Positions 31,503 to 56,924 of a stretch of DNA of 64,000 bases are shown piece after piece. How positions within the stretch are numbered: the first letter of the stretch is position 1; every line of letters starts with the position of its first letter. The translations under genes were made by a program, and so were the position numbers. The notes beneath the pieces are model-generated. The model saw only the letters and a list, made by a program, of their open reading frames with translations. It did no database searches and was not told the DNA's origin. The stretch is taken from contig JASHNW010000056.1 in the NCBI GenBank assembly GCA_030041435.1, positions 62,001-126,000 on the forward strand, read 5' to 3'. The stretch comes from Acidobacteriaceae bacterium. GTDB taxonomy: Bacteria > Acidobacteriota > Terriglobia > Terriglobales > Acidobacteriaceae.

Positions 31503-31645
31503 GAGACCCGGACAGAAGAGATTCCACTGCGCACATGCGAACCATCGCACAGATCGGGACGTTTGCGGCTCACCGGCTGAGCGCTCGATGTTGCTGCGAT
31601 TGTTGACAGCGCGCCTGTCCTGACGCAGTACGGCATTCTGCTGCG

Positions 31646-31669
31646 CCCTGTACCCTGTTCCCTATACCC
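31646..31669 (-). repeat. Period-7 G-tract repeat (copy 1), minus strand
   Basis: On the minus strand four GGG tracts are separated by exactly 4 nt each (spacers TATA, AACA, TACA). It lies between cysK and cysE, ending 13 bp before the cysE start. Related copies lie at 43503, 50518 and 51152. The pattern is able to form a G-quadruplex. Confidence 0.7.
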
Positions 31670-31682
31670 TGTCTCTGCTGCC

Positions 31683-32444
31683 ATGGGTCTGTTTGCACAC
31701 ATTCGCGAAGACATCGATTCGGTGCTGGAGCGCGATCCGGCGGCCAGTTCGCGGACCATGGTGGTGCTGTGCTATCCGGGGTTGCATGCGGTGTGGTCGC
31801 ACCGCATCAGCTCGAAGCTGTGGCGCGTGAAGATGCGGCTGGCGGCGCGGATGCTGTCGCAGATCGCGCGACTCTGCACCGGGATCGAGATTCATCCCGG
31901 CGCGGAGATCGGCCGGCGCGTGTTCATCGATCATGGTGCGGGGGTGGTGATCGGCGAGACGTCCATTGTGGGCGACGACGTGACGCTGTACCAGGGCGTG
32001 ACCCTCGGCGGCACGGGAAACGAAAAGGGCAAGCGGCATCCGACCCTGCGCGACGGGGTGTTTGTAGGGAGCAGCGCGCAAATCCTGGGAAATATCTGCA
32101 TCGGCGAGAACTCGCGTGTGGGAGCGGGGTCGGTGGTGCTGCGCGATGTGCCGCCGAATTCGACTGTCGTGGGCGTGCCAGCGCATATCGTGTATCAGAA
32201 CGGCGAGCGGGTGCTCATCACCGATCCCAGCCAGGTGAAGGATCCGCTGTCGCACGTAATTCTCTTGCTCGACGAAGAGGTGAAGCGGCTGCGCGCGCGT
32301 GTGGACTGCCTCGACGGCCAACTGGAGCAGACCACGCGGGATCTGGACGATGTGAAAGCGCTGGCCAGCGAGGAAGAGGAGCGGGATCAATACCGGAGCG
32401 AGCAGTCGGGGACGGGGTACTTCAGCATGGGCGAGGGAATCTAG
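31683..32444 (+). CDS. cysE: Serine O-acetyltransferase
   Basis: Transfers acetyl from acetyl-CoA to serine, the committed step of cysteine synthesis. The left-handed beta-helix hexapeptides are visible from EIHPGAEIGRRVFIDHGAG to ILGNICIGENSRVGAGSVV, with catalytic His in IDHG. It has the short N-terminal form of the enzyme and an unusually long C-terminal extension, helical (EEVKRLRARVDCLDGQLEQT) then acidic. The chain ends MGEGI; a terminal Ile is what docks into CysK to form the cysteine synthase complex in characterised enzymes. Confidence 0.95.
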   Translation: MGLFAHIREDIDSVLERDPAASSRTMVVLCYPGLHAVWSHRISSKLWRVKMRLAARMLSQIARLCTGIEIHPGAEIGRRVFIDHGAGVVIGETSIVGDDVTLYQGVTLGGTGNEKGKRHPTLRDGVFVGSSAQILGNICIGENSRVGAGSVVLRDVPPNSTVVGVPAHIVYQNGERVLITDPSQVKDPLSHVILLLDEEVKRLRARVDCLDGQLEQTTRDLDDVKALASEEEERDQYRSEQSGTGYFSMGEGI

Positions 32445-43502: not shown

Positions 43503-43526
43503 GGGCCCAGGGTGCGGGGTACAGGG
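43503..43526 (+). repeat. Period-7 G-tract repeat (copy 2)
   Basis: Four GGG tracts separated by 4 nt (spacers CCCA, TGCG, TACA; the second spacer ends in G). It lies between metK and the LolA-like gene, both on the minus strand. The same pattern occurs on the minus strand at 31646 and on the plus strand at 51152. Confidence 0.65.
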
Positions 43527-50517: not shown

Positions 50518-50548
50518 GGGCGGAGATCAGGGGTTAGGGAGCAAGGGG
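50518..50548 (+). repeat. G-tract cluster leading into ruvA
   Basis: GGG, GGGG, GGG and GGGG tracts with unequal spacers (9, 3 and 5 nt). The final GGGG forms part of the ruvA ribosome binding site. It appears to be a degenerate relative of the period-7 repeat. Confidence 0.5.
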
Positions 50549-50554
50549 CAGAGA

Positions 50555-51145
50555 ATGATTGCGCATTTGCGGGGTCGGCTTTTTTCGAAGCAGCCTGGGC
50601 AGGCGATTGTCGAGGCCGGCGGCGTGGGCTATGACGTGACGATCAGCGTGCCGACCTTCACGGCGCTGCCGGGGGAAGGCGGCGAGGTGTCGCTCTACAT
50701 CTACACGCAGGTGCGGGAGGATACGCTGGCTCTCTTCGGCTTCAAGGAGCGCGACGAGAAGCGGCTGTTCGAGCGGCTTATCACGGTGTCGGGCGTGGGG
50801 CCGAAGCTGGCCATCACGATCCTGAGCGGATTGAATCCGGAGCGCACCGTGGCCGCGATCCGCGCGCAGGATCACGCAACGCTGACGCGGATACCCGGCG
50901 TGGGGAAGAAGCTGGCTGAGCGGCTGGTGGTGGAGCTGAAGGAAAAATTAGAAGACTTGGCGACGGCACCGGTGCCCGCAGGTGTGACGGCGCCGGCGGC
51001 GGAGGATGTGCTGTCGGCGCTGGTGAATTTGGGCTACCAGCGACCGGCCGCGCAGAAGGCGATCGAGACGGCGGTTGGGAAGGACAAGGCGGCGGGCGAG
51101 AACTTCGACGAGTTGTTCCGCGCAGCGCTGAAGGTAATTCGGTGA
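50555..51145 (+). CDS. ruvA: Holliday junction branch migration protein RuvA
   Basis: Tetrameric protein that binds Holliday junctions and recruits RuvB. 196 residues from ATG 50555, which has AGGGG 7 nt upstream. The OB domain starts MIAHLRGRLFSKQPGQAIVE; HhH motifs ISGVGPKLA and IPGVGKKLAERLVVELK are intact, and the C-terminal domain III (EDVLSALVNLGYQRPAAQKA) is present. No ruvB or ruvC is adjacent in the window. Confidence 0.96.
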   Translation: MIAHLRGRLFSKQPGQAIVEAGGVGYDVTISVPTFTALPGEGGEVSLYIYTQVREDTLALFGFKERDEKRLFERLITVSGVGPKLAITILSGLNPERTVAAIRAQDHATLTRIPGVGKKLAERLVVELKEKLEDLATAPVPAGVTAPAAEDVLSALVNLGYQRPAAQKAIETAVGKDKAAGENFDELFRAALKVIR

Positions 51146-51151
51146 AAGGCA

Positions 51152-51175
51152 GGGTTTAGGGAATAGGGTTTAGGG
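51152..51175 (+). repeat. Period-7 G-tract repeat (copy 3)
   Basis: Four GGG tracts with 4-nt spacers TTTA, AATA and TTTA, telomere-like. It lies in the 48-bp space between convergent ruvA and tyrS, 6 bp after the ruvA stop. Confidence 0.75.
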
Positions 51176-56875: not shown

Positions 56876-56924
56876 AGAGACAGGGTCCACAGTCCACGGA
56901 ATAGGGTAGAGGAGAAGCAGGATA

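Follow-up and report, generated by a model that had tools for sequence, protein, structure and literature searches.

Degenerate 7-bp units arranged in tandem occur in cyanobacteria as the STRR and tRNA-Leu intron heptads. Dispersed G-rich heptamers have been described in Xanthomonas (GGGNATC) and Nostoc [GGGGA(C/T)T], where they lie close to open reading frames, on the non-coding strand upstream and on the coding strand downstream, and where ruvA is named among the repeat-associated genes (Rehm et al., 2015, PMC4692102). A further heptamer, TAACTGA, forms direct repeats in marine Beggiatoaceae, some Cyanobacteria and Bacteroidetes (MacGregor, 2015, PMC4679880). In a search of the open-access literature, none of the papers listed dealt with heptad repeats in Acidobacteria. 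Here we analyzed a 64,000-nucleotide (nt) stretch of an Acidobacteriaceae genome (contig JASHNW010000056.1; hereafter the window), in which an initial annotation had pointed out three sites, on the minus strand at 31646-31669 and on the plus strand at 43503-43526 and 51152-51175, with four GGG tracts separated by exact 4-nt spacers (GGGN4x4). These are the window's only exact matches and all three are intergenic on hexamer-based gene calls; 300 dinucleotide shuffles of the window gave a mean of 0.047 and a maximum of 2. We regard them as the AGGGNNN spacer variety of genome-wide (AGNNNNN)n 7-bp tandem repeats that abut gene starts and stops. Our preferred explanation, to which we assign a probability of about 0.55, is a degenerate heptad family, grown by slippage, self-homogenising and situated mostly outside genes, in which the GGG sites form one variety.

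The genome carrying the window (G000; 5.77 Mb in 134 contigs) holds 208 exact GGGN4x4 matches, overlaps counted. Arrays were detected by self-similarity at lags 3 to 30, with no requirement for G and a cut of 16 matching bases in 21, in a sample of 1,514,010 bases made up of the window and 80 further stretches. Genes were predicted with a simple hexamer-based program, and the annotation is not curated. The sample is non-random, its contigs being partly drawn from those with matches and tiled from base 1 (contigs 6, 9, 30 and 40 were included because they held matches); a batch picked regardless of matches gave 5 arrays in 255,040 bases, and the density per Mb is thus uncertain. At lag 7 there were 104 intergenic arrays, whereas lag 6 gave 2 and lag 8 gave 1; coding sequence held 10 at lag 7; the signals at lags 14, 21 and 28 are largely the lag-7 arrays over again. 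The 104 arrays include neighbours that share a gap, and those with two called neighbouring genes occupy 74 gaps. With a stricter cut of 18/21, applied to the first 864 kb, 34 intergenic arrays were found at lag 7, none at lags 6 and 8 and none in shuffles. The proposal of a dispersed intergenic repeat family, enriched over shuffled sequence and lying near gene ends, is supported by these data; a lack of genome-wide enrichment over shuffles had been named beforehand as the refuting outcome, and the enrichment is present. The accompanying statement that the sites occur only between genes holds for 48 sites of the sample (exact matches merged), while 4 others are coding. The family is wider than the GGG sites, and its common feature is the period of 7, not the G-tract. 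Within the window, only the array at 31646 passes the lag-7 threshold of 16/21.

The units of the arrays are diverse, the commonest being AGCTGGG, AGCCGGG, AGGGTAT, AGGGTTT, AGCGGAT, AGTGCAC and AGCGGGT. AG (or CT on the other strand) recurs at one fixed phase in at least 70% of the units in 87 of the 104 arrays, whereas GGG does so in 29. The G of the AG step is also the least variable: when heptad positions were grouped by their own modal bases, with no register chosen, it was off-mode in 79 of 1128 cells, compared to 443 of 2283 for other G positions. In G056, a genome from another family of the same class, the corresponding values are 28/231 for the G after A and 121/456 for other G. Two gaps (L136:8519-8702 and L116:7013-7307) consist almost entirely of AGTGCAC/AGTACAC-type heptads, with switches of variety within one array. 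Heptad arrays also stand at or near contig ends (G000:C6:1-176, and further cases in G001, G002, G004, G014 and G056); the repeats probably interrupt assembly, and the true arrays may exceed their visible length. An all-against-all comparison of the array flanks, aimed at sequence that a mobile element would share outside the array, gave 688 matches, many of them visibly leftover heptads beyond the mask.

Sharing of spacer sequence among the sites had also been suggested, and this stands in a looser form: the pattern GGGNNYA has 74 matches in the own genome compared to 4 for its reversed control. The claim does not extend to the 43503 site, whose spacers are CCCA, TGCG and TACA, and many arrays carry different spacers as well (GGGAGCY). 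The AGCYGGG variety has 91 matches and none reversed, and a further reversed-pattern control in the own genome gave 33 versus 0. Together with the shuffles and the neighbouring lags, these controls make chance or an artefact of base composition scarcely credible, and for the own genome it is already refuted. What can be said for it comes from a weak site and from some other genomes. Of the two looser relatives named in the initial annotation, the one at 50518-50548 consists of a short run of degenerate heptads directly after the TAA of the upstream gene, but inspection of the other, at 56898-56912, shows no heptad array. The reversed control of GGGNNYA scored about as well as the pattern itself in G019 (22 for the pattern versus 18 reversed) and better in G039 (0 versus 8), G045 (0 versus 7), G047 (0 versus 3) and G050 (0 versus 1); the pattern therefore says little in these five genomes.

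Under a rival explanation the arrays would be G-quadruplex (G4) elements, selected for G4 or i-motif folding in DNA or RNA and regulating neighbouring genes. A G3N1-7 x4 motif is present in 42 of the 104 arrays, the intergenic sequence holds 86 such motifs in 844 gaps compared to 25.2 in shuffles, and in vitro G4 folding is documented for the GGG heptads of Xanthomonas and Nostoc (PMC4692102). However, 61 of the 86 motifs lie inside period-7 arrays (at a looser cut of 14/21), and the other 25 are near the level of 18.05 (sd 4.03) found in shuffles of array-free gap sequence, with no clear enrichment. Among intergenic GGGNkx4 matches there are 48 at k = 4 and 0 or 1 at each of k = 1-3 and 5-8, including some lengths that would give shorter loops. 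The 62 arrays without a motif behave like the others in polarity (44/52, against 36/41 for G4-capable arrays; see below) and in AG phase (49/62 and 38/42), and their G after A is off-mode in 40 of 583 cells compared to 214 of 1124 for other G. Nor are four G-tracts kept at orthologous sites, being absent from the arrays downstream of ruvA in G009 and upstream of cysE in G002. G4 formation as the defining or conserved property of these repeats is thus not supported, and G4 is rejected as what they have in common. We consider selection for it quite unlikely, and infer that G4 capability is a by-product of the varieties that carry GGG.

The arrays have a fixed direction with respect to genes. Polarity was counted on 93 arrays (AG gave no orientation for 4, and another 7 did not have two called neighbours). 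In 80 of them it is the 5′ end of the AG-rich strand that lies closer to a gene, at a median distance of 5 nt compared to 106 nt for the other end. The rule holds on both sides of genes: at stops 48 arrays follow it and 7 run the opposite way, and at starts the numbers are 32 and 6. Orientation by G over C gives 84/97, and in G056 the AG-based count is 20/25. Array pairs within one gap (10 convergent, 1 divergent and 12 in the same direction) follow from this polarity. Stop-side arrays make up 44 of the 68 that lie within 40 nt of a gene edge; convergent and tandem gaps hold 22 stop-side arrays each, whereas among gaps of at least 40 nt 130 are convergent, with two stop edges each, and 465 tandem.

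Such an arrangement could reflect directional insulators, in which the array stops incoming read-through or antisense transcription and lets the gene's own transcript out. With the AG-rich strand pointing outward, an incoming transcript would be CT-rich and made on a G-rich template, where Rho loading or a roadblock in the template might end it; at starts the promoter would sit inside the array. The polarity at both edges, seen likewise in G056, Xanthomonas and Nostoc, speaks for this idea, as do the distribution of stop-side arrays over convergent and tandem gaps and a promoter-like hexamer at the gene-facing side of start-side arrays (13 of 22 genes). It is weakened by the arrays in which AG and G-over-C orientation disagree (12/100), by G017, a genome of the same family in which polarity is 1/5, and by G006, a genome of the genus that does without arrays in its sampled part. 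On balance we regard insulation as unlikely. A broader version, in which the heptad arrays of at least three phyla, if functional, are one-way gene insulators, transparent to exit and resistant to entry, is a rather doubtful extension. At least three phyla do bear heptad arrays of unlike sequence with the purine- or G-rich strand pointing away from the neighbouring gene. If this version were true, one fixed G per 7 bp would be the read-out, G-quadruplexes would be optional, and the insulators would be acquired or lost from one species to another within a genus.

The hexamer in question is TANNNT, which in leaderless genes of bacteria lies about 12 nt upstream of the start codon (PMC3160421). 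Counted by distinct gene, 13 of the 22 that have a start-side array possess it at 4-9 nt from the start codon, compared to 85 of 783 others (Fisher p = 1e-7). A TANNNT exactly six nt from the start codon occurs in 46 of 805 genes compared to a background of about 6, and at spacing 6-7 the count is 66 of 805 (genes with at least 60 nt upstream), 54 of them without and 12 near an array. The 66 are likely a set of leaderless genes in this acidobacterium. The described leaderless class is not defined by repeats, unlike the subset here that has heptads upstream of the -10 element. Near arrays the hexamer is mostly TACCCT (7/12 at spacing 6-7), and the AG register is fixed 6 nt from the start codon in 10/19. 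Start-side arrays might accordingly be read as promoter ladders, that is, tandem copies of a leaderless -10 element (TACNCTG) in which each unit serves as a spare. The association and the fixed register favor such ladders, and so do the orthologs of the cysE-like gene, with 1-5 units of which most end in TACCCTG. Ladders would not account for the more numerous stop-side arrays, of which only 6 of 44 have such a hexamer, and distal units rarely match TANNNT (16 of about 133 start-side and 15 of about 235 stop-side). We therefore hold this explanation to be improbable.

The arrays might also be translational or post-transcriptional signals, either as protein-binding heptads or as tandem stop codons after genes. 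Protein binding was proposed for the TAACTGA heptads (PMC4679880), and TAG is the stop codon beside 23 of 43 stop-side arrays compared to 208 of 648 genes of the genome. TAG is, however, not specific to stops among the array units, as TAG, CAG and GAG units number 110, 83 and 58 at stops and 60, 67 and 18 at starts. Nor did the stop codon prove to be a seed of the array, its AG being in the array register in 8 of 34 cases, not above 1 in 7 (p = 0.14). A signal of this kind is very improbable.

Compared to the heptamers of Xanthomonas and Nostoc, the family described here shares the dispersed, exact 7-bp tandem units, the over-representation in non-coding sequence (104 intergenic arrays versus 10 coding) and the polarity rule (80/93 AG-oriented arrays). 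It differs in that neither GGGNATC nor GGGGAYT is among its commonest units. The sets of Rehm et al. were defined by a GGG heptamer, so that arrays without GGG were not sought. Most of the arrays found here are not G4-capable, several varieties occur together in one genome and have the AG step in common, and varieties differ between orthologous junctions. The TAACTGA repeats are likewise intergenic heptamer direct repeats of unknown function near genes, and their reverse complement holds CAGTTA. According to MacGregor (2015), a single unit dominates the genome on which that work centred, where related heptamers seldom form repeats; the repeats are not G-rich and lie mostly just upstream of start codons, all unlike the present family. 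Neither TAACTGA nor TCAGTTA is among the 45 commonest AG-anchored units of our census.

Orthologous junctions illustrate how the varieties change. Downstream of ruvA, G000 carries AGGGTTT units, whereas G010 combines AGGGTAT, AGCGGGT and AGCGAAT, G009 has the units AGCCGGT, AGCCAGT and AGCGAGT, and G011 has one or two units; in the other seven loci read there, no heptad units are visible. Just upstream of ruvA, GGG-type arrays longer than the window's run are present in 6 of 35 related loci, in either orientation, and some other loci have heptads without any GGG, such as the AGCAACT/AGCAACC heptads of Terriglobus albidus (L059) and of two loci from metagenome-assembled genomes (MAGs; L060 and L064). 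For the cysE-like gene, 11 loci of the genus were read, and most of them show 1-5 CT heptads (CCCTGTA-type) on its upstream side. The gene-proximal unit is TACCCTG in 9 of these and TACTCTG in G007, and the distal units of G002 are GGCTACA; the start in G003 is not comparable, and G004 gave only a distant match. The proximal TACCCT lies 12 nt before the ATG in the window and 6-7 nt before it in several relatives. Across these junctions the location, the period and the AG/CT step are thus retained, and it is the G-tracts that change.

The GGGNNYA pattern is matched in 11 of 12 genomes of the genus and in 20 of the 61 genomes searched, and the AGCYGGG variety in 7 of the 12. G056 has 62 GGGNNYA matches and none reversed, with a spacer type of its own, GGGAAYA. 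G006, the genome closest in RuvA (its kinship resting on RuvA identity alone), matches neither pattern, and the 522,520 bases sampled from it contain no intergenic array; the overall rate of the own genome would predict 36 there, and its lowest sub-sample rate 10.

According to the slippage explanation, 7-bp slipped-strand or template-switch events in replication or repair would make and homogenise the arrays, which would be retained where their harm is small, and G4 capability would arise in varieties that happen to carry GGG. The period, location, polarity and AG register, the different varieties at two orthologous junctions and the absence of arrays from the sampled part of G006 are observed, whereas slippage as the maker and near-neutrality are what we infer. 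Several results weigh against this explanation. Plain slippage predicts neither the fixed polarity nor one nearly invariant G per heptad, and both are left unexplained by it. Gene-edge composition was tried as the cause of the polarity and rejected, as array-free edges do not match it and the composition at starts is reversed, the latter being expected from Shine-Dalgarno purines. The TANNNT association at starts hints at function. The gaps of three gene pairs are 180, 174 and 200 in the own genome and 192, 117 and 173 in G006 (for G006 measured as the distance between protein matches), similar in order with arrays and without them; a gap that is not simply longer by its array fits poorly with pure insertion of units. 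Confinement to intergenic sequence is weaker in G056, where 34 of 53 lag-7 arrays are intergenic and 19 coding. G017 runs contrary to the pattern in AG as well (2/7), on 7 weak arrays and poor gene calls. Also listed among the contrary results is a separate, smaller intergenic family of period 15, the one other lag to stand out (18 segments at lag 15 in the sample, 17 of them apart from lag-7 arrays), with units like CTGGCCGNTTCACCG or ACCGGCTCTTAGCTG at L127:495, L115:4731, L123:537, L122:9150 and other places. Since polarity and the invariant G are unexplained, we place the slippage explanation no higher than stated above and continue to consider directional insulation.

Heptad repeats are known from several phyla, and G-rich ones have been discussed as G-quadruplexes. 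The present data separate the G-tracts from the period, as the 62 arrays without a G4 motif keep the period of 7, the polarity at gene edges and the nearly invariant G, and these arrays are natural controls. The question thereby shifts from the role of G4 to why the unit is 7 bp, why it points outward and what keeps the G. With G006 free of detectable arrays in its sampled part, the makers and effects of arrays could be compared between close relatives in one genus.

Table 1. Heptad arrays of the window and the genes beside them (coordinates in the window)
Feature	Position	Strand	Context
Heptad array GGGTTTAGGGAATAGGGTTTAGGG	51152..51175	+	6 nt past the ruvA stop, inside the 48-nt convergent gap to a tRNA-synthetase gene
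Heptad array with exact GGGN4x4 at 31646-31669	31641..31673	-	Directly before the cysE-like gene, the G-rich strand being antisense
TACCCT, the unit of the cysE array closest to the gene	31665..31670	+	Fits -10 consensus TANNNT; putative promoter element
Degenerate heptad array GGGCCCAGGGTGCGGGGTACAGGG	43503..43526	+	Between SAM-synthetase gene and a gene for which no Pfam family passes the cut-off
Short degenerate heptad run, AG at 7-nt steps	50518..50548	+	Between cytochrome-like gene and ruvA
ruvA	50555..51145	+	Pfam RuvA_N 8e-22; genus and family orthologs; flanked by two sites
cysE-like hexapeptide transferase	31683..32444	+	Pfam Hexapep; downstream of the 31646 array

The RuvA protein of the window is 92% identical to that of an 'Acidobacteria bacterium' MAG, with records from Acidobacterium and Silvibacterium next. 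Upstream of the cysE-like gene lies a gene with a PALP domain (Pfam PALP), and the names cysE and cysK for the two genes are suggested by domain and neighbour. A search with Rfam gave no match at the sites; at gathering scores the window has only three tRNAs. Two palindromes were noted in gaps elsewhere in the sample. The long gap L121:13462-14094 holds an inverted pair of arrays and three copies of the palindrome TGTTCCACGTGGAACA, which we take provisionally to be parS-like. The palindrome TCGTATACGACGCGTCGTATACGA is conserved in the divergent gap L106:11586-11786 and in its G006 counterpart in L229, and is perhaps an operator.
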